Shown piece by piece: positions 3,231-62,640 of a stretch of DNA of 64,000 nt. Both the position numbers and the translations under genes were made by a program. The notes under the pieces are model-generated. The model did not search any database. It saw only the letters and a list, made by a program, of their open reading frames with translations, and was not told the origin of the DNA. This stretch comes from Tetracentron sinense. Taxonomy: Eukaryota > Streptophyta > Magnoliopsida > Trochodendrales > Trochodendraceae. Location: assembly GCA_015143295.1 (NCBI GenBank), contig CM026552.1:60010944-60074943 (forward strand), written 5' to 3'. The number at the start of each line of letters is the position of its first letter. Position 1 is the first letter of the stretch.

Positions 3231-3260
3231 AGAAGAAGAAAAAAAGAAAAGAAAAAGAAG

Positions 3261-8259: not shown

Positions 8260-8415
8260 TCAATAGTCACCCTGATAGGGCCAATAGTATAAGTCCATTG
8301 CCTCCACCTGAGGCTCTACTACAGGCTCCACATAGGACTCCTCCTCGCCATAGTCCTCCTCTATCCAAGGACCCTGAGCATAGATGTCAAAGGGAACACG
8401 TGTACCTGCCGACAT
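8260..8415 (-). CDS. LTR-embedded acidic small ORF, 51 aa
   Basis: ATG at 8415, in the conserved context TTTCATGTCGGCAGGTAC, opens 51 codons ending in TGA at 8260. The product is acidic, with PWIEEDYGEEESY in the middle and an aromatic end WPYQGDY. Equivalent frames occur at the same place in most gypsy LTRs of the window. The homologous frame in this element's 5' LTR (near 18810-18660) lost its ATG and gained an internal TAG. No known domain is recognisable. Translation is unproven; the case rests on conservation between subfamilies. Confidence 0.5.
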   Translation of the reverse strand: MSAGTRVPFDIYAQGPWIEEDYGEEESYVEPVVEPQVEAMDLYYWPYQGDY

Positions 8416-10938: not shown

Positions 10939-11079
10939 ATGTCAATAGGTACCGAGGAAGCCCTCAACCTTGAGCCTTGGGTTGAGGAAGAGTATGTTGA
11001 GGAGAGAGAGCCTCTTATCCCGATACAGTCACAGGAGGACAGGGACCATGATGTTTGGCCTTACTTAGATTACTATTGA
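10939..11079 (+). CDS. LTR-embedded acidic small ORF, 46 aa
   Basis: ATG to TGA gives 46 codons with the core EPWVEEEYVEE and the end VWPYLDYY. Compared with the copy at 21339-21479, most differences in the EPWVEEEYVEEREP and WPYLDY segments fall on third codon positions and are silent (GTT/GTC, GAA/GAG, GTT/GTA, AGA/AGG, CCT/CCA, TTA/CTC, GAT/GAC). It is preceded by the CTGAG...CTCAG hairpin and followed by the 6-bp hairpin. No known family is recognised. Confidence 0.55.
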   Translation: MSIGTEEALNLEPWVEEEYVEEREPLIPIQSQEDRDHDVWPYLDYY

Positions 11080-18611: not shown

Positions 18612-20837
18612 ATCAAAATACAAAATATAATATTCTCTCTCTTTCTCTCTCTCAATAGTCACCCTGATAGGGCCAATAGTCTAAGTTCCTTACCTCCACC
18701 TGAGGCTCTACTATAGGCTCTACATATGGCTCCTCACCATAGTTCTCCTCTATCCAAGGACCCTAAGCATAGATGTCAAAGGGAACACGTGTACCTACCG
18801 AAATGAAATGTACGGCTGAACATGGAATACTCAGCAAACAAAAACTACTAGCTAACAATGCTATACTAATCATAATATCACGTACAAGTGCGTAAAAGAA
18901 TACCATTTATAAAGTTCATGCTTAAAACCCCTCATGGAAAACCTTTCATAAAAACTTATTTTTCATGGAAAACGAAATCACCTTGTTCATGCTTATGAGT
19001 TCTTATGCATGCTTATGAGCCTCGTGAGTTCTTATGAGCTTTCGAGTTCTTGTGAACTTTCTTGTGAGCTTCGAGTTTTTATGAGCTTCTTGTGAGCTTT
19101 CAAGTTCTTGTGAGCTTATGATCCTTGGAGACTTATGCAATATCTTAGAATTTGCATTTATTACGAGTTCTTGAAAGCCTTGTGAGACTTATGATCCTTG
19201 GAGTTCATGCAAGATCTTAGACTTGATCCTTGTGAGCATGAGGTAACCGATCTTAGAAATACCAACCCAAAGTTTGGCTTTGTCAATACTTATGTATTTA
19301 TGCTTCTTCTTATGAATTTCCTTTGAAAACATTCCTTATGATAATTGAAATACATGCTTATGAGAAAACCTCGGTCATATAAAACTTATCGTGCGTGGAG
19401 TGCTTGTGAGCATCATCATGTATATATGGAAAGCTTTAAACATTTCATATGATTCATACAAGATGTAGCACCCCGGATTTTTCATCTTTAATGAATGGCA
19501 CTTTCGTAGCTAATTGGCCATTTTCGTAGTCTAATTAATAAATAAGGGAGAAATCGGAAATTCTGAAATGTCAAAAATGTTCGTTTTCGAAAGACGGATC
19601 CAACGCAAGTTGAATCGTCGAAATCCGACGAGCGAGTCAAAAGATATGGTCAAAACAGTCCAGACATACAGAGCACCGATCGCTCGGTCCAGTCAGCGAT
19701 CGATCGGTCCATAACCGATCGATCGGTAGCTATCACACGGTCAGAAATTTTGTATGGGGAAATTTTCCAGAGAGTGAGTTTTTGACCTGTCGATCGGTCA
19801 TAAACACCGATCGCTTGGTAGGCAACCGATCGATCGGTCATAACCACCGATCGCTCGGTCTTCGCGTTTTTGCAGAAATTCAGTAAGGGCGTTTTCATCT
19901 TTTGGGGGTTAAACCCTTTCTCCTTAAGGCTTGCCCGAGCCTTAGGGCATCATTCACTATACTTAGAGAGATTTGGGAGATAAGAGAGAAGAGAAAAGGG
20001 TTTCCTAAACCTAGGTTGCTTTTGGAGAAGAAATCAAAGGGGTGAAGACCCTAGATCGTCCACAAGCACGTTTTCTTCAAGATTTGAACTCAAGCTCGGG
20101 TGGGGTGCATTCTCAAAGCTAGGGCAGCCCTCACTCACGTTTTTGAAAGGGATTTCTTCCCCAACTCAAGCTTCTTTCAAGCAAAGGCTTCATCTTTCAA
20201 GTTGGAGCTTCAATCAAGGTCCCTACCAAGGATCAAGCCTTGATTCAAGGTTAGTACACTCTACTAACTTTCTTTAGCAATAATCTAGTTTTTCCCCTTT
20301 GACATTATGATGTTGGTCTTGTATCTTCCCTTACTTGAAATGTGCTATACTTCCTAAACCTAAACAAGATAAATGTGAATGTGGGGTTGTATGTATGATT
20401 GGTGGATGTAGAGGCGATTGGATGCCATTGGACGTGGTGAAATGTGGGTATGGAAAATGGTGGAAGGGCACTCTATGAATAATGAAGATACTTGGATGTT
20501 GTGTGGGAAATTTATGCGCTAAAAAGGGGAAATAAAACTACTAAAATGTTGCACACCGGATGTTTGATAATATGCTTAAACCAAGAATAAATGAAATTGA
20601 TAAAGGAAATGGATGTAAGCTTTATGTAATTATTCTTGTAAATGATGACTTGACCAAATGCCATGTTGATCACCTAAATGCTTACATGTTATACTATGAA
20701 TTGAAATATGATGCGATATCCCTCTTGTTACACGTGTCCCCATGATTGTCACTATTGGCACGCCCACGAGCACACATGCATGCATGAAACCGGGTTTTTC
20801 AAGATTGTATTATACATGTTGAATCAAGAAATTGAAC

Positions 20838-21338: not shown

Positions 21339-21479
21339 ATGTCGGCAGGTACTGTGGATGTCCTCGACCCCGAGCCTTGGGTCGAGGAGGAGTATGTAGA
21401 GGAGAGGGAGCCACCTATCCCATGGCAGTCTCAGGAGGATGGGGACTTGGATGTGTGGCCATACCTCGACTACTGTTGA
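21339..21479 (+). CDS. LTR-embedded acidic small ORF, 46 aa
   Basis: ATG (context TTTTATGTCGGCAGGTAC) to TGA, 46 codons. Core EPWVEEEYVEE, end VWPYLDYC, strongly acidic. It is intact, like the copies at 10939, 30958 (minus), 54597 and 62216. Function unknown; translation not shown. Confidence 0.55.
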   Translation: MSAGTVDVLDPEPWVEEEYVEEREPPIPWQSQEDGDLDVWPYLDYC

Positions 21480-22420: not shown

Positions 22421-22430
22421 CCTATTTATA
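22421..22430 (-). promoter_or_regulatory. TATA box of the gypsy 5' LTR
   Basis: TATAAATAGG on the minus strand, just downstream of the palindromic-word block (22485-22640) in the sense of the element. The 3' LTR copy near 12031-12040 is mutated to CTAAATAGG. Confidence 0.6.
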
Positions 22431-30817: not shown

Positions 30818-30958
30818 TCAACAGTAGTCGAGGTACGGCCACACGTCGAGGTCTCGGTCCGCCTGAGACTGTAGTGGAATAGACGGCTCTCTCTCCTCTA
30901 TGTACTCTTCCTCGACCCAAGGCTCTGGGTCGAGGGCTCCCTCAGTACCTGCCGACAT
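30818..30958 (-). CDS. LTR-embedded acidic small ORF, 46 aa
   Basis: ATG at 30958 and TGA ending at 30818. The product is almost the same as that of the 62216-62356 copy, with core EPWVEEEYIEE and end VWPYLDYC. Intact despite this being a solo LTR. Confidence 0.55.
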   Translation of the reverse strand: MSAGTEGALDPEPWVEEEYIEEREPSIPLQSQADRDLDVWPYLDYC

Positions 30959-31249
30959 GAAAGTACAGCTGAGCATGGAATACTCAGTGAGTACAAGCTA
31001 CTAGCTAACCATGACGATAATAAAACACAACAACAGTAATACAATACAGAGCAGTAAGGGGAACATTACAAAAGAAACAATATTAAACATGGTATAATAC
31101 AATCATCTTGACGTACGTTCATGAATGCGAAAACTCTGATAAAACTCATGCTTGGAAATCCGTCTCATGTCTCAGTATGACTTGAGAAATCATATATGCA
31201 TGCACGCATGAATGCCTTGTCATCATCTTGTAAACTTGCATCTTGTAAC

Positions 31250-31795: not shown

Positions 31796-34700
31796 TGCAA
31801 TTTTTTCTTGTTGATTATTATATGCATATGCTCTTGAAATCCCGGTTCATGGATACATGTGTGCTCGTGTTCATTAATTGTAACAATCATGGGAATGCGG
31901 ATAGCAAGAGAGATATGGCATCACAATTCAATTCATAGTTTATGCTTATGAGAATTTGAGTAATCTACTTGGCATTGGATCAATTCATCATTCATGAGAA
32001 CACATGCATAAGGCCTACTTCCATTTCTCTTCATTTAAGTCATTTTCTCATAGTTTAGGCATTTCGTCAAACACATAACATGCAACGTTCATTAGTAGTT
32101 CATCTTATTCTTTTAGTGCATTTTTTCCATTCAATCATAAAGGTAAGTTTGTTATTTATGAAATGCCCATCCTCTATTTTCCCTTTCACACACCACACAC
32201 ATCCATACATCTCGGCATCCAATCACCTCAATCAACACCCCATACACATCCATACCCTTTTCTTATCTTGTTTAGATTTATTGGAGATGATACATTTCAT
32301 AAGGAAGAACCATAATATCAAGAGTCACATTTCACAATAGAAAACCTAGATTATTGCTAAGGGAAGTTAGTAGGGTGTACTAACCTTGAATCAAGGCTTG
32401 ATCTTGGGTGGAAGCCTTGATTGAAGCTCCAACTTGCAAGTAGGAGGACTCTTGCTTGAAGAAGACTTGAGTGGGAAGGAAACCCTGTTGAAAATACCTT
32501 GGAAAATGCTGCCCTTGCTTGAGAGAGACTCCCCCACGAGCTTGAGGCTTGACTTTGAAGAATCCAAGCTTTGGAACAAATCTTGGGTAGCCCAACTCTT
32601 GATTTCTTCTCAAGAGGAAAACCTAGGTTAGGAATCCCCTTCTCCTCTCTCTCTATCTCTCAAAATCTCCTAAGTGTAGTGAATGGGGTCCTCAGGGTTC
32701 GGGCAAACCCTTTAAAGCAAGAGAGAACCGCCCAAATGACAAAAAGACCCTTAATGAAATTTCTGCAAAAACGCGATGACCGAGCGATCGATGGTTATGA
32801 CCGATCGATCGGTTTCCTACCGAGCGATCAGTGTTATTGACCGAGCGACCGGTCAAAAACATGCTCTCTGGAAAATTTCCCCATACAAAAAAGTTAACTA
32901 GTCGATAGCCTCCGATCGATCGGTTTTGGACCGATCGATCGCTACTAATGACCGAGCGATCGGTGCTTTGTAGGTCTCGACAGTTTTGACCATATCTTTT
33001 AACTCGCTCGTCGGATTTTGAAGATTCAACTTGCGTTGGGTTCGTCTTTCGAAAAGGAACATTTCTAACATTTCAGAATTTTCGATTTCTCCCTTATTTA
33101 TTAATTAGACCATGAGAAAGGCCAATTAGCAACGAAAGTACCATTAATTAAATATAGAAAAGTCCGGGGTGCTACATCTTGCCATATGGATCGATGAAAA
33201 GTGAAGAAGTCATGACAAAGTATGAAGAAAAAGTTAAAGGGAACCCAGATAAAAATTTATGCGGAAAACTGGATCCCGAGGATCTTTACACCATAGAATA
33301 CAAGTATTTCTATCTATAAGTTTTAGTCAAATTACCTCGGCGAATGATGTTCATCAGTGAAGCAAAAACCAACTCGAACCGTCAGAACTCTTTGTAGAGT
33401 TTTCTCAAACAAATTCTCGAAGCTCGGTCATTGTTCTTCGCTATCCCCGTGAAGCTTTGGAATCTCACTTGGTATTGAAGAAGCAAAGAGAAATAGATAG
33501 ATTGTTGATGTAGACTTGCTATCACCAATAACCTTAGAGTTCAAAATCCTAAAGTTGAAAAACCCAACTAAGAATACCCTATGCAGCTCATGAAAATCCA
33601 AGGGGATCTCCCTTGGTGCTCACGATTTTTGGAGAAGAGGAGAGAGAGAGATGATTGGTTTTCACAGTTTGGGGGGTTGTGGTATATTTATAGGATTTGG
33701 ATCATATCCAATCCTAATCCAATTACTTCTTATCCCTTAGGAATTATCTATTAATAATAACTCTTATTATTAATTAAATAAAAACCTAGTTTATTTATAA
33801 CTACTCTAGTTATAGTAAACCTACTAATTTAGGAGTCCTTCTCAAAAGAGGATTCCTTAATTAAAAGGATTAACCAAATACCTCAATAAAGGAATCCTAA
33901 TCCAATTAGGAGACCATCCATAAGGGGGGCGTGAGCAAAGGGATGGTGTGAGCATTAGGGGAGTCTTGGACTCCTAGTTGTAATCCAATTACAACTTTAT
34001 CTCTTTGTTCCTTACTTTCCAAGAATTGGAAATTAATTCCATAATTAAAGGAGTTATTATTCAACTAACCTAATCCTAATCCAATTAGGAAAGCTTAAGT
34101 GGGTGCCCCACTGTAGAGACCCGAATCTTCTTCATGTTTTTATTGCAAGTATTAGGGGTAGTATAGTCCTTGTGATGTTTTAATGTTTATGTATTTATAT
34201 CTAACTGGTGTAGTGTGATTAGGGCTTAATCAAACTTGTAAGCAGAGGGATGTCATATCAAATCCCGAACATTAGGAACCTCTAGTTTGGCACCGTTTAT
34301 TGGAATTGAGTGATTCTTGAACCATTATAAAGGTATTGGAACCCTCTTCAAGGTTCATGTTTAATGTTTTTCCATATTTTTAGTGTAAGCTAAATCAAAA
34401 GGCGGTTTTTTCAATGTCTTGTCTGATGGAATTGCAGATCAGTCAACTTTGGGGAGAATTTGGTCCATAAATAAAGGAGAATTTGTAAATTCTAAAATGC
34501 TATAAATATTCATTTTCGAAAGAGGAATCCAACGTAGGTTGAATCGTCAAAATCCGACGATCGAGTCAAACGTTATGGCCGAAACAGTTTAATAGGTAAA
34601 AAATCTGCAGAACACCGATCGCTAGAGATCGATCGGTTCACAACCGATCGCTCGGTCAGAAGTAGCGATCGATCGGTCCAAAAATGATCGATCGGTATCT

Positions 34701-36175: not shown

Positions 36176-37881
36176 TCGACTTGTCATTGTCTTCAGGTTT
36201 AGAAGAAGAGTCGTGGACCGAGGAGGTGTATGCCGAAGAAGAGGGAGAAGGTGAGCTTCCTGAGGGAGAGGTTAGGGATTTTGATGGTCATCCCTATTGA
36301 GTAGTTTAGTGTTTCTTTTTGGACGAGATGTTTATATTAGAATTTTTGACTTTTAGTTGATGTTGCCTTAGTTGTTTTACCCTATTGATGGTTTTAGACT
36401 ATTTCGTTATGAGGAGCTATGGTGTGTGGACTATTATTGTACAGGATGGTTCGACTTTTTATGATCAAAATTTTATTATCCTCATTCTTGGAGACTCGTG
36501 TTAGCACGCCTTGTATGTATGGATTTTAAGCAGGTTTATGTAATGTGACGATTCCAAAGTCCTATTTTAGCCTTGTAGGATTTTGGGGTCGTTACACCCA
36601 CCCTAGGGTTTAAATCCATGGGCTTGGGCCCACATTAAGGGTCCATACTTTATGGGTTTATGGATATGGGTCAAACCCATATTCATAAACCCATTTAATG
36701 GTCCACGCTTTAGGTTAACTTTTAATCTATTTAATCAATAATTAACATTTAATCATTTAAATAATTGACTAACATTTAATCAATTTACGAGCTTGTATTT
36801 TTTATGTGAGCATCTCCACAGATTGCTCTGGGACATTCAAACCCTGGCTTACCCAATGTTATCCCATTGACCCTAAATAGGAATTACATCGGAATTACAA
36901 GTGATGTGAGATATCCATGTTGCAATTGAATCCCAGTATAAGAACTTTAACCAATATGGATCCCGCCACATGAACTTTTTAATTCAATTGATCCTTCAAA
37001 TTACATTATCCATAATGGGCCTTTGAGATTAATATACTATTTAACTCATAGCCCATTGCACATCATCCGGGTTTCCAAGACTTTTGATTAAGCCATGAGA
37101 AACAATTTCTCATGTAAAACATTTTGAGAAAAGCCTTATTTGAGTATAATATATTTTAATAAAAATATATTTCAAGCTTATTTTGTTTCAAAATCACATG
37201 AGCAGGATTTAAGCTTAATCGACTATGTTACCTGGAACTTGGATAATCTCTCAAATTAATGAGCATGAATTTCTTGTTTGAAATTCAACATGACTCAAGG
37301 AGCTTTCTGACTATCCAACTGTCACCGAATCATAGTCCATAAGTAAGAGAATACTTTAGTGGAATCAAAACAGTCAGATTACTGCTCAGTTATAAATGAA
37401 CTCATCAGATCTAAGGATCATTGAAACTGTTCAATGTGAATGAGAGACCAACTATCTGATAGTATGTTTATGCAAGAGGTTTCTCATTGCATGCAATCAG
37501 TTAGTGTACATTTAAGCACCCATATGCTTATGTGTAGTGTCCACTACAATAGTTCGAGATAAAACTACATCTCAACTATTAAGAACGTACATCTTAGCAT
37601 AGTGGCAACCATATAAGTGAAGTGCCCAGCTTCACCCATAGCTGTGACTATATAAGGTATAAGGAACTGGAAAGCTATATCTATCTGTGATAGTCTCATC
37701 ACATAGCTTTCCTACAATATATCCTATGGACCTTTATCGATATCTCATAGGGTATAGATCATCTCATGATCATGGTCAATTACCCATAATGAATATATAA
37801 TAGATAAAGAAGAAGTCTCTATTAATCAAATTAATAAGAATCTTACAATCTAAATGAATTTTCTGGGCATCATGTCTAACA

Positions 37882-38518: not shown

Positions 38519-40759
38519 TGTCGTGACCCAAATCCCACCTTAGAAGTTAGAGTGAATCTTGGATGACTAATCATGACTTTCTTGACAAACCAACTTGCAA
38601 AATCCACAGAGCATATACAATAGAGGACATAAATGGCGGAAACATACACTAACATAGCACATCGGAAGACTTAAACAAAACCTCTATGTGTATACATGTG
38701 ATCCAAGTTATACAAAAAGATACACAAAAGAAAGTGCTGGACATGCCTGCCAAAATAATGGATATATCTCTCTCAACTCACCCACAGCTATATCACTCAG
38801 AATCTACTACCATCTAATAGTAAGCCTCGACCGGAGGTTCCTCTAAAGGTTCCTCAACGTACTCCTCCTCCACCTATGGACCAGGAGCACAGACATCAAA
38901 AGGAGCAGCAGCTCCGCTATCACCTGCCGGCATAAGAAGTACGACTGAGAATGGAATACTCAGTGGGTACCAAATACTAACCAATAGTCATAGCATAAAA
39001 ATGGCAATACATAAATTAGGAGCAATTCATATATTTTAAACGGGAACAATTCATGTCATACAAGGAAGCAAAGTAATTTATAATCATGCTTGCATTCATA
39101 AAAGCCGATAAAACCCTTGAAAACACCGTGCACTTGACTTGACTTAAAGTACCATTTTCGTGCTTGAAAACTCGTCTTGTATATCTTGCTTGATTCTTGT
39201 AGATCGTGTCATGTCATGCATGTCATGCGTGCTTGCTTGTGATCATGTAACTTGTGAGATACACTTGTTAGATGTACTTGTGAGATGCGCTTGTGAGATG
39301 CCTTGAGAGGGAAGGGAGATCCTTCTTTATGCAATGCACTTGAGAGGGAAGGGAGATCCTTCTTCATGATATGTATGTACTTGCGAGGGAAGGGAGACCC
39401 TTCTTTATGCTATGCACTTGTGAGTGAGGGGAGACCCCTTGTGGAATGTTTGTTCTTGTTTTCTTGTGAAAAGCGAGGTAAAACATATCGTAGGATATGT
39501 CCCACCTCTAAACCTCGTTCTTGAAAACCTCGGTAAATTCATGTCATGCATGTCGTGCTCGTGGAAACGTGTACATAATTGCATTTAAATTTAAATATAA
39601 CATTTGGAGAGTTAACAATACATAGAACATCAATCATTTGAGCAATTCAATATTCATGTAATTTAGGGAAAACAAGAAGTCACACTATCATAGTTCCTAG
39701 CAATTTCCACAATTAATTAAACATGCATTTCCTTAATTTACAATTCATTTCTTTCACCTTGGCATTTCATCAAACATGGTGAGTACATTATTTGTTAAGC
39801 CTATCACATGCTCTTCTAGGTGGGTTCATATTCAGAACATGCTTGTATGTTTATTATTGGTGCAATGCCCTTTCCCATTTCATTCATCACGTCATCCACA
39901 TATCATCCATTCGCCAACATCCATCTCCATTCACCATCTACACAACCCATCTCATAACACATATATAGATGAATGAAAATAAAGGATAATAGGAATGAGG
40001 GAAGAAAAATAAAGAACTATAACTAGGAGGGTAGCAAAAGGTACCGACCTTGATCAATGAGGAAGAAAACTCCTCCAAAAACGTTCGTGAGGCGTTGCCT
40101 TAGCTTGGAGAAACTCCTCATTGCGTGCTTGAATCGGAATCTTGAAGCAATCCAAATTTGAGATGATCGTGGGTCTTGAAACCCCTTTGATTTCTCCCCA
40201 AAAGCAAACCCTAGGTTAGGAAAACCCTCTCCTCTTTCTCTAACTCTCAAATGTCTCTAAGTGTTGAGAATAAGCCCTAAAGGCTCGGGCAACTCTTAAG
40301 AGTAAAGAGTGAAACACCAAAAGACCGAAACACCCTTACTGAAATTTCTGCAAAAACACGAAGACCGAGCGATCGGTGGTTATGACCGATCGATTGGTTA
40401 CCTACCGAGTGATCGGTGTGTTGACCGAGCTCTCGACCAAAAATCAACTCTCTGAAAAATTTCCCCATACAAATTCTTCGACCAGTCGATAGCCTCCGAT
40501 CGATCGGTTTTGGACCGATCGATCGCTCCATGGACCGAACGATTGGTTGCCTACAGGTCCACACTGTTTTGGCCATATCTTTTGACTCGCTCGTCGGATT
40601 TCGACGATTCAACTTGCGTTGGGTACGTACTTCGAAAAGGAACATTTCTGATATTCTAGAATTTCCAATTTCTTCCTTATTTATTAATTGTACTACTTTA
40701 AAGGTAAATTGGCTACGAAAGTGCCATGTATTAAGCATGAAAAAGTCCGGGGCTCTACA
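38519..40759 (-). mobile_element. Solo gypsy LTR with target duplication ACTAT
   Basis: A minus-strand LTR of 2241 bp with ends TGTAGAGCCCCGG (40759) and GGGTCACGACA (38519) and perfect ACTAT repeats at 38514-38518 and 40760-40764. ACCGATCGATCGGT-type words lie at 40362-40550. Repeats of about 53 bp around GAGAGGGAAGGGAGATCC lie at 39300-39430. The small reading frame is present but interrupted (38933-38814). Confidence 0.92.
38814..38933 (-). pseudogene. LTR small ORF with an internal stop
   Basis: ATG at 38933 (context CTTATGCCGGCAGGTG) and a terminal TAG at 38814 keep the 40-codon length, but a TAG replaces the conserved tryptophan before VEEEYVEE, a change explained by TGG to TAG. Diverged N-terminal half. 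Confidence 0.45.
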
Positions 40760-42156
40760 ACTATACTTAACCTGGTAAACCATCCTGTGATGAACAAGAC
40801 ATAACATATTAAAATGAAATATGATACAGAGTGCGGAAGCTTAAAACAAGCGGAAACGTAAACCAACTTTTTCTTTTTACATACATAGTCTATATTCTAA
40901 GTTTATATACAAGCATAACTGTAAAGGTGGACATGCCCACCATCAAAATACAAAAGATAAAGGTATCTCTCTTTCTCTCTCTCTCTCCATACACCCTACT
41001 CACAATAGTTTAAATACGGCCACATGTCAAGGTTTCTATCCTCCTATGGTTGAAGAGGAATAGGCGCCGCCTCCTCGACGTACTCTTCCTCAACCCACAG
41101 CTCAGGATTGAAGGTATCCACCGAACCTGCCGACAATGAAATATACGGCTGAGTATGGAATACTCAGTGAGTACAAGCTACTAGCTAACAATAGTAAGAA
41201 CGAAATACAATAATAATTACAGATAATTCATAACATAAAATTTAAAGCAATACTATGATCGTGACATGCATGTAACAAATGCAAAACTCTGGCAAAACCC
41301 ATGATTAAATTTCGTGACTTTGTTCTTGAAATATAACTTTTCATGATTTTTAAAACTTGTTTTTCATGTTAAAACTCGTACTTGTCTTGTTATTGTCTCA
41401 TGGGAATCACACGTGTCTTGCTTGTTCTTGTTTGGAATCACGCTTGTCTTGCTATGTCTTGACTTGCCTTGCCATGCTTAACTTGTGAGCTAGATGTTAG
41501 TGCCCTTGTAGCAACTTACGAGCCGGATACGCAAGTATCCTTCAGCGAATATGAATAGAAATGACTTGTGAGCCGGATACATAAGTATCCTTCAGCGAAA
41601 TAGAATAGGGTACACCAACATCCTTGACCAAACCTTTCCGACTTTATCAACTTGTCTTGTTTTCTTGTGAGCCAGGTATGACATATCTTGCGATATGCCC
41701 TACCCTTGACCGGCTTTATCATTCGTATCGAAATCACATGTCTATTTCTTGGTTTCTTTCATATACTTATACTTTAGAAAAACTTAGTTCATGCATGCAT
41801 GCGTGCTTGGGTGTAGCAATTGTGGCGATCATGATGACATGTACAACTCAAGGATAGCATATAGCAATTCAATCTTTTTATAGTCATGTGAGAATTTAAA
41901 GAACATATCAAGCATATTAATACCATTTACCAATTTGGGGAAAAACCCTTAAATCATAATTTCATGGTTTTAAGTAAATTCCTCATTCATTCATTTTATC
42001 ATACAAGTGGCATTCATCATTTAATGATCCAAACTTGGTTGCACTCCACTTGATCACCAATCCAATCTCTCCCTTGGTAGATCCCCACGCTTCTCTCTTT
42101 CTCTTCCAAGCTCTCTCTTTAGTTTAGGGTAAACCAAAAACCCCCAATGTGAGCCC

Positions 42157-45530: not shown

Positions 45531-45986
45531 CACACAACTCATAAGTACTCATAAGCAATTTTAAGAACTCATAAGCATTTTTAAGAACTCATAAGCGATT
45601 GATTTACGCACGACTTCATAAGATATATTTTTTTTTCTATGAAAGCTCAAAAGATAAGGTTTAAAAAGCTATGCACTTGTAAAAGTATGATTTCCAAGTT
45701 CGGTTTAAGTCATGAATACGAATTGTTAATTCTCTATATGTTCGCATGATATTGTTGCGTTATAACACTGTTAGCTAGTAGTTTGTACCCACTGAATATT
45801 CCATGCTTAGCCAAATTATTGACTTCGGTAGGTTTTGCGGATGCACATTCTCCTGAGCCTTGGATAGAGGAGGAGTACTACGAGCCGGAGCCTACTATGG
45901 ATCACTACCAGGATGATGGAGCTCTAGATAGGGGGCCCTATCTAGACTATTGTTGAGTGATGTGAGGGAGAGGGTCATGTATTTTG

Positions 45987-52651: not shown

Positions 52652-54018
52652 TGTAGCACCCCGAATTTTTCTATACTTAATGAATATCGTTTTCGTAGCT
52701 AATTGGCCTTCCTCATAGTCTAATTAATAAATAAGAGAGAAATCAGAAATTCCGAAATGTCAGAAATGTGCGTTTTCGAAAGACGAACCCAACGCAAGTT
52801 GAATCGTCGAAATCCGACGAGCGAGTCAAAAGATATGGTCAAAACAGTCCAGACCTATAGAGCACCGATCGCTCGGTCCATTCAGCAATCGATCGGTCCA
52901 AAACCGATCGATCGGTAGCTATTGCACGGTCGAAACTTTTGTATGGGAAAATTTTCCAGAGAGTTGATTTTTGACAAAGATCTCGGTCAATCAACCGATT
53001 GCTCGATAGGCAACCGATCGATCGGTCTTAAACACCGATCGCTCGGTCTTCGCGTTTTACAGAAATTTCATTAAAGGCTTTTTCGTCTTTTGGGGGTTAA
53101 ACCCTTTCTTCTTAAGGCTTGCCCGACCCTTAGAGATCATTTACAACATTTGAGAGATTTTGAGAGATAGAGAGAGAAGAGAAGGAAGCTCTAACCTAGG
53201 GTTTGGTTTTGAGAAGGGAATCAAGGGGGGTTTAAGAACCCTAGCTCACCCCAACTCGAGTTGCTTCAAGTTCAAGGCTCAAGCTCGTGTGGGGACTCAT
53301 TCTCCAAGCTAGGGCAGCGATCCTACGGCGTTTTTGAAAGGGGTTTCTTCCCCAACTCAAGTCCCTTTCAAGCAAAGGCTTCCTCCTTCCAAATAGAGCT
53401 TTTATTTCAAGGTTTCTTCAAGATCAAGCCTTGATCTAAGGTTAGTACACCCTACTAACTTACCCTAGCAATAAATCTAGGTTTTCCTTATGAAATGTGA
53501 TTTATTCTATTATGTTTACCTCCCATATGAAATGTATCATCTCCAATGAACCTAAATAAGATAAGAAAAGGGTATGGATGTGTGTGGGTGTTGATGTGGC
53601 GATTGGATGCCGAGATGTATGTTGTGTGATGTGTGTGATGGAAATGGTGGATGAGCACTTTACCAATAATGAACTTACCTTGATGTTGGATGGAAGATAT
53701 GCGCTAAAAAGAACACGATGAACCATTAAGAAACATTGCATGTGCTGTGTTTGACAAAATGCCTAAAATATGAATAAATGATCTAAAGGAAGAATATGGA
53801 AATGGGTTTTATGCATGCGTTCTTATAAACGATAAATTGATCAAATGTTATGCAAACTACTTATGTTACCTATGTTCATATCATGAATTGAATTGTAATG
53901 TCATATCTTGGTTATTCCCATTATCATGATTGTCACTAGGGACACGTACACGAGCACGCATGATAGCATGAACCGAGATTTCAAGAGCATGTACATATAA
54001 TAAACAACAAGAAAATAT

Positions 54019-54435
54019 TGCATGTCAAGGAGGTTGGTAGCCCAGGGAGGATTCGGGTACTAACCTCTGGCTCACAAGATAACCCCTAAAACACCTATTG
54101 TCTAGGAGGTTGGTAGCCCAGGGACATTCGGGTGCTAACCTCTGGCTCACAACAAAACTAAACAAGTAATAAAAATCACCTATTGTCAAGGAGGTTGGTA
54201 GCCCAGGGAGATTCGGGTGCTAGCCTCTGGCTCACAAGAAAACCAAACATTGCATATCAAGGAGGTTGGTAGCCCAGGGACATTCGGGTACTAACCTCTG
54301 GCTCACAAGTGCATTGCATATCAAGGAGGTTGGTAGCCCAGGGACATTCGGGTACTAACCTCTGGCTCACATGTGCATTGCATATCAAGGAGGTTGGCAG
54401 CCCAGGGAGATTCGGGTGCTAGCCTTTGGCTCACA
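54019..54435 (+). repeat. Tandem hairpin array, six units
   Basis: Units of about 55-80 bp with GGAGGTTGGTAGCCCAGGG, a short loop with ATTCGGG, and TACTAACCTCTGGCTCACA. Left arm GAGGTTGGTA pairs with TACTAACCTC, and CCC pairs with GGG inside. The last unit has GGCA on the left and TGCT on the right, a compensatory change. The 3' LTR has the same six units at 61515-61925. Confidence 0.88.
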
Positions 54436-54596
54436 AGTTACGAGATGGAGGTTTACAAGATGATGATCATGCATTCATGCATGCACGCATACATGATTTC
54501 TACGAGGCATACCGGGACATGACATGAGTTTTCAAGCATGAGTTTTGTCGGCGTTTTCGCATTCATGTACGCACGTCAGGATGCTTGTATTGTATC

Positions 54597-54737
54597 ATGC
54601 CGGCAAGTACTGAGGGAGCCCTCGACCCAGAGCCTTGGGTCGAGGAAGAGTATATAGAACAGAGAGAGCCGGCTATTCCATTACAGTCTCAGGCGGACCG
54701 AGATCTCGATGCGTGGCCATACCTCGACTACTGTTGA
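54597..54737 (+). CDS. LTR-embedded acidic small ORF, 46 aa (5' LTR)
   Basis: ATG to TGA, 46 codons, core EPWVEEEYIEQ, end AWPYLDYC. The 130-bp deletion next to it joins CATGCC to GGCAAG, so an upstream ATG replaced the original one and the frame stayed open. Against the 3' LTR copy there are few changes. Confidence 0.5.
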   Translation: MPASTEGALDPEPWVEEEYIEQREPAIPLQSQADRDLDAWPYLDYC

Positions 54738-54779
54738 GGGGAGAATATGAGAGGGTCTTGTGCATTTTGATGTTTTGAT

Positions 54780-54797
54780 AGGTGGGCCTATCCACCT
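54780..54797 (+). other. Conserved LTR hairpin (6-bp stem, 6-nt loop)
   Basis: AGGTGG, loop GCCTAT, CCACCT, perfect stem, 42 nt after the small-ORF stop. Confidence 0.7.
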
Positions 54798-55024
54798 TAG
54801 ACTTAGACATGTCTTGTATTTATGTTAACTTGGAATACTATTTTGGATCATTAGAAGAAATGAAAATTTGTTTACGCTTCCGCATATATGATAGCTTCCG
54901 CGCTCTGATTATTGTTGTTAGTACTGTATTTTATCTTGTGCATTACAGGGTGGTTTGATAGGTACGTAGTGTGACACCTAAAATATCCCTAAACTCCTAA
55001 GGGGTATTTCGGGGTGTTACAGAG

Positions 55025-55037: not shown

Positions 55038-55343
55038 CTAGGCATTAGAGTCCCTAGGGTCGCGTAGTACTAGAGACCACGATTGAACAAGGCATTAGTT
55101 GTATTCCAAGTATGGACTAACAAGTTAGTCCTAGTCAAAATAGGTTGAATCTCAACCAAACTTAGAGTCCTACGCTAGGAACACGGATTGTATGGATGAT
55201 GTTGTGTTGTATACCATATGTGCATTAATTGTGTTGTGCTTATTAAATATGCTTGATGAATATGTACTGAGCGAATTGTGAAATTTGTGCTAAATGCGTA
55301 TCCATGTTAGACTCTTGTTGTATTGTCGTTCTCAGGAGAAATC

Positions 55344-56528
55344 ATGAGACGCAATACCCGTGGTCGCGGGTACAACACGAGGGGTAATGGAGGTGATGCT
55401 CCCTCGGGTGATGATCAACCCAACTTTGCCCAAGCATTCGCATCCATAGCCGAGACTTTGGCTATGTTGGTGGCAAGGCAACCGGCCACTCCGCCTAATG
55501 CGGCACTTATACCGGCTCCTCCTAACCGAGCCCAAGCCGGGATAGAAGCTTTTCGGAGGATGAGGCCTCCAACTTTTTGTGGAAGCATTGATCCACTTGT
55601 CGCCGAGGGTTGGATTCGGCAACTCGAGAAGATATTCTCGGTATTGGCACCTACGGAAGTGGAAAGGGTCACTTGGGCCGCCTTTATGCTTGAAGGCGAG
55701 GCCGACCATTGGTGGAAATCCACACTTCGGACCCGAGAGTTGACCCGGCAAGGTCAAGACTGGACTTGGGAGGAATTCTTGGAAGCTTTCAACAAGAAAT
55801 ACTTTCCGGTCGGAATGAGAGAGAAGATGGTAGTGGAATTTATTACCTTGGAGCAAGGTAATATGTCCGTAGCGGCTTATGAAGCCAAATTTTCAGAGCT
55901 ATCTCGATTTGCTCCACACATGATAGCTACCGAGGCTATGAAGGCCCAGAAATTCGAGAGGGGGTTGAAGGCCTACCTCAAGGATCGTGTCTCAATGTTC
56001 CGACATGAGACATATTCAGAAGTTGTGGACAAGGCATTGTTGGCCGAGTCGAATTCTGAAGAGTTCTTTAAGAGAAGAGGAATGGAGAAAGGACAGTCAA
56101 GTAGTTCAGGGGAGAAAAGAGCAAGGACTAGCTTGTATCAGTCCGCAGAGCTGGCTCAGTCACAGAGGATATATTCAGCACCACAGGCCCCTCGCTCTTT
56201 TGCTCCACCGGCTTTTCGCCCGGCTACCTCATATGCTCCTCGCCCCGCAGTTACTCAGGTTACGGGATATGCTCCTTCCCTCTATTCACATGAGGCCTGC
56301 ACTCTTTGTGGAAGGAGGCATCCAGCAGGAGAATGCCGGAGGGTTTCAGGAAGTTGCTTCCATTGTGGTGACCATGGTCACATGGTTAGAGATTGTCCCC
56401 GACGTCAATTGCCAGCTCAGTCTTCGGGGAGCAGGCCCTTGATTAGGCAGACATCCCAGCCTAGCTCTTCCCAGGCTTCGAGGGCCTCACAGTCTACCCG
56501 GCCTCCTCGCCCAGCCACACCGGGCTGA
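55344..56528 (+). CDS. gag: Gag, 394 aa, ends in a premature TGA
   Basis: The ATG at 55344 opens MRRNTRGRGYN; the same start context is found in the minus-strand element. The Gag (retrotrans_gag) core covers about residues 74-190 (GSIDPLVAEGWIRQLEK, AAFMLEGEADHWW, WTWEEFLEAFNKKYFP). A Pro/Ala/Ser-rich part follows, then a CTLCGRRHPAGEC motif near residue 319 and a CCHC knuckle CFHCGDHGHMVRDC near 337, which bind RNA. The frame stops at TGA 56526; the same frame continues for 17 codons with the usual VFALSERDAR to the putative donor at 56581, so the TGA is probably a CGA-to-TGA mutation. Confidence 0.9.
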   Translation: MRRNTRGRGYNTRGNGGDAPSGDDQPNFAQAFASIAETLAMLVARQPATPPNAALIPAPPNRAQAGIEAFRRMRPPTFCGSIDPLVAEGWIRQLEKIFSVLAPTEVERVTWAAFMLEGEADHWWKSTLRTRELTRQGQDWTWEEFLEAFNKKYFPVGMREKMVVEFITLEQGNMSVAAYEAKFSELSRFAPHMIATEAMKAQKFERGLKAYLKDRVSMFRHETYSEVVDKALLAESNSEEFFKRRGMEKGQSSSSGEKRARTSLYQSAELAQSQRIYSAPQAPRSFAPPAFRPATSYAPRPAVTQVTGYAPSLYSHEACTLCGRRHPAGECRRVSGSCFHCGDHGHMVRDCPRRQLPAQSSGSRPLIRQTSQPSSSQASRASQSTRPPRPATPG

Positions 56529-56580
56529 GTCTTTGCCTTATCCGAGAGAGACGCACGTGCATCCGACGATGTCGTGCAAG

Positions 56581-56716
56581 GTACGCAAAAATTTTAGAGT
56601 CTAAGTTGTGTAAAATTTCTATGGTTTATTATGTGATTATTTATACTAAGGGCTATTCTATGTATGATGCTTGTGATTGTTTGAAATCTACTAATAGTAG
56701 TTACTTAATCGCACAG
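56581..56716 (+). other. Putative gag-pol intron (136 bp)
   Basis: Exon 1 ends GTGCAAG, then GTACGCAAAAATTTTAG; exon 2 starts after AATCGCACAG. A TACTAAT branch-like motif lies about 25-30 nt before the acceptor. Removal joins G and GC into one codon and puts gag in frame with the protease; unspliced, the frame ends at TAG six codons past the donor. The minus-strand element has the same joints (16280-16420, 141 bp). The two intron bodies differ strongly while the ends are conserved. Confidence 0.68.
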
Positions 56717-59700
56717 GCGCTTTATTAGTGAACGAGTGTCTCGCCTGTGTGTTGATCGACACAGGATCCACTCACTCCTTTGTGTCACCTAGTTTCGCAA
56801 AGGGATTTTTGACTGAGTCTACTCCGTTAGAGCGGGAGTTGACCATTGCAACTCCACTCGGCAAGTCAGTTGATACGGACAAGATATTCAGGGATAGTGT
56901 GGTTCAAGTGGGGGAGCATGAACTGTTAGCCGATCTTATCGTCCTAGCTTTTCAAGACTTGGATTTTGATGTCATCTTAGGGATGGATTGGTTGTCAAAC
57001 CATCACGGGAATGTTGCGTGTTTTGAGAAGATGGTGAATTTCAAGCCGGAAGGAGTTAAGCCTTTTCATTTCTGAGGATTGAGAGAAAGGGATATTGCTC
57101 GCCTTGCAGCTTTGAGCTTAGCGAACCCCGAAGTACAAAACTCTTCGACTATTCCAGTTGTGAGTGAGTTCTTAGATGTGTTTCCGGAGGAACTTCCCGG
57201 GTTTCCTCCGAATCGGGAGATTGAGTTCGCTATAGAGTTTACTTCGGGCACCGCTCCGATTTCAAGGGCACCGTATAGAATGGCCCCTATAGAGCTGGAA
57301 GAATTGAAGAAATAGATTGAGGAGTTACAACAACTTGGTTTCATCCAACCAAGTGTCTCACCGTGGGGAGCTCCGGTTCTCTTTGTGAAGAAGAAGGACG
57401 GGTCTATGAGGATGTGTATAGACTACCGTCAGTTGAACAAGGTAACTATCAAGAATCGTTATCCCTTGCCAAGGATAGACGACTTGTTTGACCAACTGAA
57501 GGGAGCGAGATTCTTCTCCAAAATTGATCTTAGATCGGGGTATCACCAATTAAGGATCAAGGCGGAAGATGTTCAGAAGACGGCTTTCAGGACTCGGTAT
57601 GGGCATTACGAGTTCCTTGTCATGCCTTTTGGGCTGACGAATGCACCGGCGGCATTCATGGATTTGATGAACCAGGTGTTCCGATCTTACTTGGATCGAT
57701 GCGTGATTGTATTCATTGATGACATTTTGGTGTATTCCCAGACATGGGAAGACCACGCACGAGACCTCCGCCTTGCTCTGGAGATGTTGAGAGAGCATAG
57801 GCTATATGCCAAATTGAGTAAGTGCGAGTTCTGGTTAGAGAAGGTCGCATTTCTTGGACACGTGGTGTCGGCCGAAGACATTTCTGTAGATCCAGCCAAG
57901 GTTGAGGCAGTCATGAGTTGGGAGAGGCCCAAGAGCGTCACGGAGATACGTAGTTTCCTCGGATTGGCAGGCTACTACCGGAGATTTGTGGAGGGATTCT
58001 CCAGTTTGGTGGCACCTCTCACCTACTTGACAAGTAAAAACGCAAAGTTCAGTTGGAGTGACCGATGTGAAGTAAGTTTCCAAGAGTTGAAGAAACGCCT
58101 CACCACAGCCCCTGTCCTTATTGTGCCATCTGGACCTTTTGGGTATGAGGTGTATAGTGATGCCTCGCACGTCGGACTCGGGTGTGTCCTAATGCAACAC
58201 AAGAAAGTCATTGCCTATGCATCAAGGCAGTTGAAAGAGCATGAAAAGAACTACCCCACTCACGACTTGGAGCTTACGGCGGTCGTGTTTGCACTCAAAA
58301 TTTGGCGACATTATCTGTACGGGGTGGAGTTCTATGTGTACATGGACCACAAGAACCTCAAGTATCTCTTTTCCCAAAAAGAGCTAAACTTACGACAACG
58401 GCGTTGGATTGAGTTCTTAAAGGACTACGAGTGCACTATCCAATATCACCCGGGAAAAGCAAATGTGGTGGCAGACGCTCTGAGTACGAAACCATCGGGG
58501 TTGTTGGCTCACATGTTGGTGCAGGAATGGAGACTGTTAGACGATTTGGCAAATCTAGACATCAGTGTGAACGATTCTGTCCGCAGTTCGGTTTTGGCAA
58601 ATGTTACAGTTCGGCCGTACCTTATAGACTTGATCCAGGAGTATCAAGCCACAGACACTGACTTGTTTGCTTTTCGGGATAAGGAAGTGGCCAAGGGTAG
58701 TACGGACTTCTCTCTCACTAGCCGAGGTGCTATTACATTCAAGGGAAGGCTTAGTGTCCCAGCCAATGCAGACCTTTGGAGAGAGATTATGGACGAAGCT
58801 CACCGGTCTAAGTATACAGTGCATCATGGGGGTACGAAGATGTACCGGAACCTCAAGAGTCACTTTTGGTGGCGAAACATGAAGAGAGAGGTTGTGGAGT
58901 ATGTGGCACGGTGTTTGGTGTGCCAACAGGTGAAAGCGGAGCATTTGAGACTGGTGGGTATTTTGCAGTCTCTCCCTATTCCCGAGTGGAAATGAGAACA
59001 TTTCTCTATGGACTTCATCGTGGGGTTGCCGAAGACGGTTAGGAAGACCGATGCTATATGGGTAGTTGTTGATAGACTCACGAAGTCCGCTCATTTCTTA
59101 CCGTACCGGACTACATTCAACTCCAATCAGTTAGCGGAGCTATACATCAAGGAAATAGTCCGATTACATGGGGTGCCAGTGAGTATTGTGTCGGATAGAG
59201 ACCCAAGATTCACATCCAGGTTTTGGAAAAGTTTTCAAGGTGCAATGGGCTCCCGGTTAGACTTTAGCACAGCTTTCCACCAACAGACCGACGGGCAAAC
59301 CGAGAGGGTGAATCAGGTTATTGAAGATATGCTCCAAGCATGTATGCTAGACTTCAAGGGAAGTTGGGAAGATCACCTACCTTTGGTAGAATTCACTTAC
59401 AACAATAGTTATCAAGAAAGCATACAAATGGCGCCTTTCGAGGCTTTGTACGGAAGGAGTTGTAGATCCCCGTTGTATTGGGATGAAGTGGGAGAAAGAA
59501 AGATTTTGGGCCCCGAGTTAATTGAACAAACCGCGGATAGGGTCAAGCTTATCCGGGAGAGGTTAAAGACCGCACAAGATAGACAGAAAAGCTATGCCGA
59601 CAACCGAAGGAGGGATCTTGAATTCCGAGTCGGTGATTTTGTGTTTGTAAGGATTTCACCGACCAAAGGTGTTATGCGATTCGGGAAGAGAGGCAAGCTT

Positions 59701-60048
59701 AGCCCGAGATATATGGGTCCGTTCGAGATCATTGCTCGAGTTGGTGAGGTAGCTTACCGGGTTGCTTTACCCGCTCATATGGCGGCGGTCCACAACGTGT
59801 TTCACATCTCGATGCTCCGGAAGTATATCCCGGATCCTTCACATGTCGTCGAACTTGATACGATAGAGATCCGAGAGGACCTCACGTTGGTTGAGAAGCC
59901 GATTCACATATTGGATCAAAGAGACCAAGTGCTTCACAACAAGACTATACCGCTAGTCCTAGTGCAATGACAACATCACGCGAGAGAAGAAGCCACCTGG
60001 GAGCGTGAAGCCGAAGTCAAAGCAAAGTATCCCGAGTTGTTTGAATAG
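56717..60048 (+). pseudogene. pol: Pol: protease, RT, RNase H, integrase, chromodomain; four stops
   Basis: One frame throughout. Protease DTG in [11 protein letters not shown] (about 56749-56781); RT with [20 protein letters not shown] and active site FIDD (57712-57723); RNase H ([14 protein letters not shown] near 58150, [14 protein letters not shown] near 58258); integrase with HHCC zinc region (58801-58930), catalytic Asp in MDFIVG (59008), Asp in VSDRDPRF and Glu in QTERVNQVIEDML; GPFEIIARVGEVAYR; chromodomain to 60048. Stops: TGA 57073 and TAG 57313 (both between protease and RT), TGA 58993 (integrase EWK) and TGA 59968 (a chromodomain Trp). All catalytic residues seen are intact. The chromodomain is thought to steer integration to heterochromatin. 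Confidence 0.92.
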
Positions 60049-60140: not shown

Positions 60141-60349
60141 TGTAGCACCCCGGATTTTTCTATACTTAATGAATACCGTTTTCGTAGCTAATTGGCATTC
60201 CTCATAGTCTAATTGATAAATAAGAGAGAAATCGGAAATTCCGAAATGTCAGAAATGTGCGTTTTCGAAAGACGAACCCAACGCAAGTTGAATCGTCGAA
60301 ATCCGACGAGCGAGTCAAAAGATATGGTCAAAACAGTCCAGACCTACAG

Positions 60350-60540
60350 AGCACCGATCGCTCGGTCCATTCAGCGATCGATCGGTCCAAAACCGATCGA
60401 TCGGTAACTATCGCACGGTCGAAACTTTTGTATGGGAAAATTTTTCAGAGAGTTGATTTTTGACCGAGATCTCGGTCAATTAACCGATCGCTCGGTAGGC
60501 AACTGATCGATCGGTCTTAAACACCGATCGCTCGGTCTTC
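60350..60540. repeat. Palindromic-word block, ACCGATCGATCGGT type
   Basis: Seven words: perfect 14-bp palindromes (ACCGATCGATCGGT) alternate with the asymmetric ACCGATCGCTCGGTC. A conserved TTTGTATGGGAAAATTTTTC segment lies in the middle. The inner element itself entered the first such word of the outer LTR. Confidence 0.85.
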
Positions 60541-61514
60541 GCGTTTTGCAGAAATTTCATTAAGGGCTTTTTCATCTTTTGGGGGTTAAACCCTTTCTTC
60601 TTAAGGCTTGCCCGACCCTTAGAGATCATTTACAACATTTGAGAGATTTTGAGAGATAGAGAGAGAAGAGAAGGAAGCTCTAACCTAGGGTTTGGTTTTG
60701 AGAAGGGAATCAAGGGAGGTTTAAGAACCCTAGCTCACCCCAACTCGAGTTGCTTCAAGTTCAAGGCTCAAGCTCGTGTGGGGACTCATTCTCCAAGCTA
60801 GGGCAGCGATCCTACGGCGTTTTTGAAAGGGGTTTCTTCCCCAACTCAAGTCCCTTTCAAGCAAAGGCTTCCTCCTTCCAAATAGAGCTTTTATTTCAAG
60901 GTTTCTTCAAGATCAAGCCTTGATCTAAGGTTAGTACACCCTACTAACTTACCCTAGCAATAAATCTAGGTTTTCCTTATGAAATGTGATTTATGCTATT
61001 ATGTTTACCTCCCATATGAAATGTATCATCTCCAATGAACCTGAATAAGATAAGAAAAGGGTAAGGATGTGTGTGGGTGTTGATGTGGCGATTGGATGCC
61101 GAGATGTATGTTGTGTGATGTGTGTGATGAAAATGGTGGATGGGCACTTTACCAATAATGAACTTACCTTGATGTTGGATGGAAGATACGCGCTAAAAAG
61201 AACACGATGAATCATTAAGAAACATTGCATGTGCTGTGTTTGACAAAATGCCTAAAATATGAATAAATGATCTAAAGGAAGAATATGGAAATGGGTTTTA
61301 TGCATGCGTTCTTATAAACGATAAATTGATCAAATGTTATGCAAACTACTTATGTTACCTATGTTCATATCATGAATTGAATTGTAATGTCATATCTTGG
61401 TTATTCCCATTATCATGATTGTCACTAGGGACACGTACACGAGCACGCATGATAGCATGAACCGAGATTTCAAGAGCATGTACATATAATAAACAACAAG
61501 AAAATATTGCATGT

Positions 61515-61925
61515 CAAGGAGGTTGGTAGCCCAGGGAGGATTCGGGTACTAACCTCTGGCTCACAAGATAACCCCTAAAACACCTATTGTCTAGGAGGTT
61601 GGTAGCCCAGGGACATTCGGGTGCTAACCTCTGGCTCACAACAAAACTAAACAAGTAATAAAAATCACCTATTGTCAAGGAGGTTGGTAGCCCAGGGAGA
61701 TTCGGGTGCTAGCCTATGGCTCACAAGAAAACCAAACATTGCATATCAAGGAGGTTGGTAGCCCAGGGACATTCGGGTACTAACCTCTGGCTCACAAGTG
61801 CATTGCATATCAAGGAGGTTGGTAGCCCAGGGACATTCGGGTACTAACCTCTGGCTCACACGTGCATTGCATATCAAGGAGGTTGGCAGCCCAGGGAGAT
61901 TCGGGTGCTAGCCTCTGGCTCACAA
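61515..61925 (+). repeat. Tandem hairpin array, six units (3' LTR)
   Basis: The same six units as at 54019-54435 with a few substitutions. Arms GAGGTTGGTA and TACTAACCTC pair with one G-U. Confidence 0.88.
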
Positions 61926-62187
61926 GTTACGAGATGGAGTTTTACAAGATGATGATCATGCATTCATGCATGCACGCATACATGATTTCTACGAGGCATA
62001 CCGGGACATGACATGGGTTTTCAAGCATGAGTTTTGTCGGCGTTTTCGCATTCATGTACGCACGTCAGGATGCTTGTATTGTATCATGCCTTATACTGTT
62101 TCCTTTGTGATGTTTCTATTACTGCTTGTATGATATTACTATTGTGTGTTTTATTATTGTTATGGTCTGTTAGTAGATTGTACTCAC

Positions 62188-62206
62188 TGAGTATTCCATG
62201 CTCAGC
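62188..62206 (+). other. Conserved LTR hairpin H1
   Basis: CTGAGTATTCCATGCTCAG: 5-bp stem and 9-nt loop, ten nucleotides before the small-ORF ATG. Seen before the small frame in nearly every LTR. Confidence 0.6.
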
Positions 62207-62215
62207 CGTACTTTC

Positions 62216-62356
62216 ATGTCGGCAGGTACGGAGGGAGCCCTCGACCCAGAGCCTTGGGTCGAGGAAGAGTATATAGAAGAGAGAGAGCCGACTATTCCAT
62301 TACAGTCTCAGGCGGACCGAGATCTCGATGCGTGGCCATACCTCGACTACTGTTGA
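62216..62356 (+). CDS. LTR-embedded acidic small ORF, 46 aa (3' LTR)
   Basis: ATG (TTTCATGTCGGCAGGTAC) to TGA, 46 codons; core EPWVEEEYIEE, end AWPYLDYC; net charge strongly negative. It matches no family I know. The ATG overlaps a CAG|GTAC splice-donor-like site, so the conserved start could also be an RNA-processing signal. Confidence 0.55.
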   Translation: MSAGTEGALDPEPWVEEEYIEEREPTIPLQSQADRDLDAWPYLDYC

Positions 62357-62398
62357 GGGGAGAGTATGAGAGGGTCTTGTGTATTTTGATGTTTTGAT

Positions 62399-62416
62399 AG
62401 GTGGGCCTGTCTACCT
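62399..62416 (+). other. Conserved LTR hairpin (6-bp stem, 6-nt loop)
   Basis: AGGTGG, loop GCCTGT, CTACCT; one G-U replaces the G-C of the 5' LTR copy. Confidence 0.65.
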
Positions 62417-62640
62417 TAGACTTAGACATGTCTTATATTTATGTTAACTTGGAATACTATTTTGGATCATTAGAAGAAATGAAAATTTGTTTACGCTTCC
62501 GCATATATGATAGCTTCCGCGCTCTGTTTATCGTTGTTAGTACTGTATTTTATCTTGTGCATTACAGGATGGTTTGATAGGTACGTAGTGTGACACCTAA
62601 AATATCCCTAAACTCCTAGGGGGTATTTCGGGGTGTTACA

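Follow-up and report, generated by a model that had tools for sequence, protein, structure and literature searches.

Long terminal repeats (LTRs) are usually treated as regulatory DNA without protein code, and their divergence is used for dating on the assumption that no coding constraint acts on them. The 64,000-nt stretch of the Tetracentron sinense genome analysed here (the window, which lies in contig C2 of the 1.16 Gb genome searched for family copies) is packed with nested Ty3/gypsy elements, and an initial annotation had pointed to a conserved acidic small open reading frame (ORF) in many of their LTRs. The question is whether this frame is coding and, if it is, how it is entered and to which protein it belongs. 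We start from the copy in the 3' LTR of one of the nested elements, element A:

62226..62356, plus strand: proposed LTR coding exon of the element A 3' LTR, from the acceptor to TGA, with a low dN/dS and YAG|GT kept; the ATG-started ORF is 62216-62356

Coding constraint on the LTR frame

Comparison of the frame with the other frames by the ratio of nonsynonymous to synonymous substitution rates (dN/dS, omega) was a check named beforehand in the initial annotation. For five window copies the pooled omega of the frame was 0.17, far below 1; the two remaining forward frames gave 0.92 and 1.27, and the three on the reverse strand gave 1.19, 0.39 and 1.39. Neutral simulation, with tree and rates set by hand from pairwise distances, gave a mean omega of 0.84 and a minimum of 0.32, and none of the 2000 runs was as low as the observed value; in 117 of them all five frames were still open. 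A codon model on hand-set trees yielded omega values of 0.129, 0.158 and 0.188 for 4, 6 and 8 sequences, with twice the log-likelihood difference at 38.3, 54.5 and 68.2, respectively. The pol region, used as a control between element A and two other window elements, gave 0.13 and 0.06. Along the LTR, codon-position unevenness (three copies, overlapping windows) peaked at the ORF, with a chi of 14.9 at LTR 2101-2220. Purifying selection on the LTR frame at the protein level is well supported.

Two explanations that need no protein were weighed against these data. A purine-rich exonic splicing enhancer, or some other element acting at the RNA level, would fit the GAA/GAG-rich core beside an acceptor-like site and the hairpin nearby, but omega stays at 0.21 after removal of the codons at which every copy has E, K or R, and therefore a purine-rich enhancer is no explanation of the constraint; in the last eight codons (the WPYLDYC end), where silent changes occur at P, Y, L and D codons, omega is 0.11. 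These two values rule out the enhancer as sole cause and make a non-coding element of any kind very improbable. That the frame is open by chance in recently copied LTRs is scarcely credible: the variation within four families is indeed nearly neutral, with observed/expected replacement-to-silent ratios of 0.82, 0.83, 1.27 and 1.47 for singletons (and, from small counts, of 0.45, 0.51, 0.82 and 1.47 for shared changes), but the between-family omega, the neutral simulation and the likelihood ratios contradict chance, as does the peptide of the F1 family, which matches the other peptides although its ORF DNA gave no blastn hit. Near-neutral variation within families is expected after insertion, and the constraint therefore acts on active lineages and not on individual old copies. 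Comparing within-family selection between copies with and without the ATG did not discriminate between them, the shared changes being too few.

Copies and families of the frame

Besides the copy given above, the window holds the following related frames:

54597..54737, plus strand: LTR ORF copy, element A 5' LTR (translation)
21339..21479, plus strand: LTR ORF copy, D family, young and abundant (translation, genome family rows)
30818..30958, minus strand: LTR ORF copy, family C (translation)
10939..11079, plus strand: LTR ORF copy (translation)
8260..8415, minus strand: LTR ORF copy, F1 family (translation)
18655..18804, minus strand: F1 family copy, one stop, no ATG
38817..38933, minus strand: 38933 family copy, one stop in the window copy, frame open in most family rows
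45825..45956, plus strand: 45822 family copy, open frame, no ATG
36187..36300, plus strand: 36184 family copy, open frame, no ATG, acceptor GTCTTCAG|GT
41002..41136, minus strand: LTR ORF copy, one stop, no ATG

The genome search gave 910 to 4504 first-look candidates per family query, which are not confirmed copy counts, and 40 were scored each time. From these, 135 rows of six families were aligned, three window copies being included twice; they were chosen for closeness to each window copy and are not a random sample, and families 24982, 10939 and 41136 lie outside the sampling. Presence of the ATG, of the YAG|GT site and of an open frame (final stop not counted) was as follows:

Family A: ATG 9/9, YAG|GT 9/9, open frame 8/9
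Family D: ATG 31/31, YAG|GT 31/31, open frame 31/31
Family 38933: ATG 28/31, YAG|GT 27/31, open frame 27/31
Family F1: ATG 17/22, YAG|GT 20/22, open frame 11/22
Family 45822: ATG 0/21, YAG|GT 20/21, open frame 16/21
Family 36184: ATG 0/21, YAG|GT 20/21, open frame 19/21

Another check named beforehand, openness of the frame in young copies, gave the 31 open rows of the D (21339) family, one of them a window copy counted twice. The final stop is lost in L010 (D family), L083 and L084. The D family (L009-L038) is young and abundant, all 40 scored places having an identity that rounds to 100% over 242 nt.

Translation confirmed the six ATG...TGA frames of the initial annotation, five of them with 46 codons and the one at 8415-8260 with 51. 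Among the related frames that it had placed near 18810-45830, those at 18804, 36187, 38933, 41136 and 45825 contain the same core, and that at 24982 is weak; the label "decayed" is not appropriate for families 38933, 45822 and 36184, given their open-frame counts, which exclude stops and frameshifts. An acidic frame does lie inside the LTRs of several Ty3/gypsy subfamilies. The copy at 54597 lacks the conserved block 5' of the ORF. Between the copies at 10939 and 21339 there is a per-site excess of silent change (15.8 silent changes per 27.0 silent sites versus 16.2 replacement changes per 111.0 replacement sites), but only about half of the differences are silent, and not most of them as had been stated.

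Three of the LTR peptides have a net charge of -10 to -11 and contain 5-10 aromatic residues. The one that was modelled gave a mean predicted local distance difference test score (pLDDT) of 68 and a predicted template modelling score (pTM) of 0.18, with no confident fold. No relatives of the LTR peptide were found in a set of 5.8 billion proteins, no Pfam match was obtained for two of the peptides, and one exact pattern had 0 matches in IMG/VR.

Entry into the proposed exon

The ATG is located just 5' of the conserved YAG|GT, which is present in 127 of the 135 rows. In the two families without the ATG (36184 and 45822; 0/42 rows), YAG|GT is found in 40/42 rows and the frame is open in 35/42; in the 36184 family the site mostly reads TTGTCTTCAG|GT, a good-looking acceptor. 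Five of the six window copies with an ATG have T at both -3 and +4, and the copy at 54597 differs at both positions. The acidic exon is preceded by a TACTCACTGAGTA block; in element A the conserved block upstream of the ORF runs TACTCACTGAGTATTCC...GCTCAGCCGTAC:

62171..62225, plus strand: conserved block ending TCGGCAG, putative 3' splice site, common to families that hardly align around it

Judged from these sequence features, a coding exon entered by splicing appears to be a better reading of the LTR frame than a stand-alone ORF. What stands of the original description is an acidic coding frame under constraint; its stand-alone character is doubtful, since the ATG is missing in two families and its context is poor.

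A candidate 3'-end signal follows the ORF:

62399..62416, plus strand: palindrome/hairpin 3' of the ORF, with a TTTTGTATTTTGA-like stretch just before it; putative 3'-end signal

Hairpin variants differ by family (AGGTGG..CCACCT, GAGTAG..CTACTC, AAGTGG..CCACTT), with stem changes that preserve pairing. Of 16 rows tested, eight had this hairpin as their best stem and the other eight gave other stems. A second acceptor-like site, ACAG|GATGG, is located near the LTR end (62560-62575 and matching places) in 8 of 12 window copies.

The gag-pol intron and the gag-end donor

Element A is inserted within the LTR of an older element, with GATCG flanking both ends, and is organised as follows:

52652..55021, plus strand: 5' LTR, GATCG before it; about 130 nt shorter than the 3' LTR, the block before the ORF being gone
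53116..53440, plus strand: predicted leader exon 1, ATG-free, start arbitrary; donor end AAG|GTTAGT; 3' LTR counterpart 60605-60929
55336..56580, plus strand: gag exon, ATG at 55344, acceptor TTCTCAG|GA; Retrotrans_gag, Ty3_capsid, zinc knuckle
56581..56716, plus strand: gag-protease intron, 136 nt, GTACGC...CACAG, phase 1
56717..60048, plus strand: pol (protease ALLVNECLA..., reverse transcriptase (RT), RNase H, integrase), broken in element A
60141..62640, plus strand: 3' LTR, 2.5 kb, TGTAG...TTACA, then GATCG

Its two LTRs are 98.4% identical over the first 1950 nt, and its gag copy carries an in-frame TGA close to the end. The domain order found is Retrotrans_gag, Ty3_capsid and zf-CCHC followed by RVT_1, RT_RNaseH, Integrase_H2C2 and SH3_Tf2-1; by domain content and order the elements are Ty3/gypsy LTR retrotransposons, putatively chromoviruses of the Tekay/Del type. 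Directly 3' of the 5' LTR lies TGGTATCAGAGC, presumably the primer binding site for the initiator Met tRNA. Downstream of a stop in the last pol ORF a EEATWEREAEVKAKYPELFE tail was read from the sequence, a candidate for the chromodomain that this type has at the integrase C-terminus.

In A, D, 38933, 36184 and F1 (one copy each), gag and protease are separated by a GT-AG stretch of 134-144 nt in phase 1, which splits a Gly codon; in the window F1 copy the gag-end donor is present and no acceptor passed the scan script. With a 34-letter pattern of the spliced junction, 11 intron-free genomic copies were found (seven exact, three with one mismatch, one with two), as compared to 0 for a control pattern. 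All eight intron-free copies that were fetched read across the junction in frame, and six of these contain the gag leader acceptor together with the unspliced end of its intron, the string not being found in the other two. The gag-pol intron is therefore really spliced, some spliced RNA having been copied back into the genome, and it is functional.

The 45822 family also has its gag-end donor in phase 1. Entry into the LTR exon is likewise in phase 1, with G|GT, and entry into the protease exon is G|GC, G|GA or G|GT, so that the same Gly codon is split. Four gag-only elements of the 45822 family (L131, L151, L152 and L153, on contigs C23, C3 and C2) were fetched and their gag ends read: the gag end is followed after about 200-330 nt by the LTR start, with no protease or RT between them in 4/4. 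The gag-end donor is kept in all four, and L131 and L152 show the zinc knuckle; stops in the gag end mark two of the four as old copies. The LTR exon of this family has the acceptor and lacks the ATG. Since these elements keep the donor without pol, the first in-phase coding acceptor known beyond it is that of the LTR exon. Two other donors were considered and rejected, one at the gag N-terminus, which is plausible in A and D and is not kept in the 38933 family rows, and one at the pol end, which by eye is not kept in element B.

A proposed alternative last exon of gag

Starting from the observed coding constraint, the conserved acceptor-like site and the gag-pol intron with its phase, we propose, with a probability of roughly 0.55, that gag has an alternative terminal exon in the 3' LTR, the LTR ORF, which gives Gag an acidic tail. 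The element RNA would begin in the 5' LTR, at a predicted transcription start, with an ATG-free leader. gag ends at the conserved phase-1 donor, ...SDDVVQ-G|GT. In unspliced RNA gag terminates inside the intron; removal of about 136 nt lets it continue into protease-RT-integrase as Gag-Pol; and removal of about 5.6 kb, up to the YAG|GT of the 3' LTR, also in phase 1, would produce Gag with an acidic, probably disordered tail. The tailed protein would read ...QG-TEGALDPEPWVEEEYIEE...WPYLDYC and stop just before the apparent 3'-end signals. Joining of the gag donor to the LTR acceptor is the step that we infer. The tail may modify Gag assembly, nucleic-acid release or host contacts. The wider scheme is a retrovirus-like splicing programme that would remove an intron between the ATG-free leader and gag as well as the gag-pol intron, and would also join gag to a selected exon of the LTR; this exon would tail a third Gag isoform and be kept by many families, gag-only ones included. 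It is put forward tentatively, at a little less than even odds.

Several points weigh against the proposed gag exon. No gag-LTR junction was found in the genome: ten pattern matches all had three mismatches, and the five that were read are unspliced introns. Re-integration of such an RNA is not expected because it has neither polypurine tract nor U3, which would account for this absence; all the same, the lack of a genomic gag-LTR junction leaves that splice step unproven. The phase match has a one-in-three chance of arising by coincidence, and gag has other phase-1 donor-like sites, for example at 55858. An in-frame ATG precedes the exon in 7 of 10 families or single copies, and the two ATG-less families may simply have lost function; shared changes in the 36184 family are four replacement to one silent (ratio 1.47), though few. 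The gag-only copies may have kept the donor through short age alone; two of the four have gag stops.

Alternatively, the frame could encode a stand-alone acidic peptide, translated from the ATG just 5' of YAG|GT on a short LTR transcript that is either unspliced or has leader exon 1 spliced to CTCAG|CC; any LTR, including a solo one, would then be a mini-gene. Across four families 85 of 93 rows have the ATG; with the CTCAG|CC acceptor in use, it would be the first AUG met downstream of a leader that has none, and possible 3'-end signals follow it. We nevertheless consider this unlikely, if worth keeping in mind, as two families that keep the exon lack the ATG in all of their 42 rows, its context is poor in all but one of the six window copies, and a search for the junction of leader exon 1 with the ORF, by exact pattern and for A and D types only, had 0 matches in the genome. 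The ATG-less families would also be explained if the LTR exon were joined to some other upstream coding exon, or if translation began at a non-AUG codon in the leader. Phase-1 entry alone names no partner, gag contains another phase-1 donor-like site, and a second codon-like periodicity exists at LTR 421-540 (chi 10.9 versus 14.9 at the ORF); however, by eye, a TAA closes the leader frame that would be in phase with the exon, both in element A and in family 36184, and we regard this option as improbable.

The LTR leader

In the LTR, upstream of the ORF, an ATG-free stretch ends in AAG|GTTAGT or a similar donor. The ATG-free gap exceeds 340 nt in 7 of 12 copies and is 159-280 nt in the other five, two of which (8415 and 18804) have LTRs interrupted by another insertion. 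Eight leader segments together contain 1 ATG, as compared to 13.8 expected after shuffling; the segments are related and two are nearly identical, and zero ATG in a single leader has a chance of 5-23%. The region 3' of the leader is rich in ATGs (57, 60 and 53 in 1276, 1416 and 1079 nt). By a scoring with approximate plant splice-site frequencies, the leader donor ranks first among 146 (A3), 156 (C) and 133 (D) GTs and third among 74 in B. The gag acceptor TTCTCAG|GA lies directly 5' of the gag ATG in element A, ten D loci, the window F1 copy and three of four 38933 loci, the fourth having TTCGCAG|GA. The predicted leader-to-gag intron would hold the primer binding site.

Leader exon 1 was rejected as a coding partner of the LTR exon, on the grounds of non-triplet indels, in-phase stops in element A and family 36184, and the single ATG in eight leaders. 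A second peak of codon-position unevenness (chi 10.9) is located at LTR 421-540 of element A (60561-60680), near the predicted transcription start.

Relation to known systems

Protein code within or overlapping an LTR and reached by splicing is known from sag of mouse mammary tumour virus and nef of human immunodeficiency virus. Unlike the LTR exon described here, these belong to animal retroviruses, have their code in U3 and specify unrelated, larger proteins. The four 45822-family elements resemble the TR-GAG or gag-only elements in having gag without pol followed by the LTR; to our knowledge, no LTR coding exon has been described for TR-GAG elements.

The available part of a 2025 review describes plant LTR retrotransposons as generally without introns, with Ogre and EVADE given as exceptions and BARE mentioned for a short Gag (PMC12786077), and a machine-learning study, as far as its accessible text goes, sets plant LTRs apart from coding regions and discusses promoter-type motifs (PMC11656987). 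Similar to the proposed system, EVADE (a Ty1/copia element of Arabidopsis) and BARE separate Gag-only from Gag-Pol mRNA by alternative splicing according to the portions of the sources at hand (PMC12786077, PMC3735527), and a functional intron near the gag end is present here too, as seen from the 11 intron-free copies and the conserved sites and phase. However, EVADE and BARE are Ty1/copia elements, whereas those in the window have Ty3-type domains, and the short Gag of EVADE, as described in those portions, ends by a frameshift to a stop near the splice junction, whereas here a conserved LTR coding exon would supply the tail. Ogre (Ty3/gypsy, Tat) shares with the present elements a partly spliced intron inside the polyprotein (PMC6317226, PMC12786077); in the accessible text its intron lies between GAG-PROT and RT, unlike the one here, which is 5' of the protease DTGS motif in elements of other domain make-up. 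CERV of Cer1 is, like the proposed tailed Gag, an extra protein from a spliced retrotransposon mRNA (PMC10309623, PMC12786077); the available parts of these articles give it a role in nuclear export of genomic RNA, and nothing was found in them that places CERV in an LTR.

Our literature search, which mostly did not extend to subscription journals, found no coding exon in plant LTRs and no gag-protease intron in chromoviruses. If the proposal is correct, the promoters, R regions and ages of an abundant plant lineage with a protein exon in its LTRs would be read differently, and a further Ty3/gypsy group would control Gag isoforms by splicing; for plants, the review in its available part names only Ogre, EVADE and BARE (PMC12786077).

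Other features of the window

Minisatellites with units of about 64-86 bp lie inside the predicted LTR intron at 61513-61930, 54013-54440 and 31249-31796; by eye the unit contains an inverted repeat, GAGGTTGGTAGCCC...GGGTGCTAACCTC. The regions 7986-12646 and 18398-23039 resemble a duplicated locus, with the same F1 LTR fragment beside the same LTR start and two aligned stretches of 88.7% and 87.6%. A tandem repeat at 17233-17700, with a 155-bp unit in 3.0 copies and 97% matches, is located in the gag region of a minus-strand F1 element.
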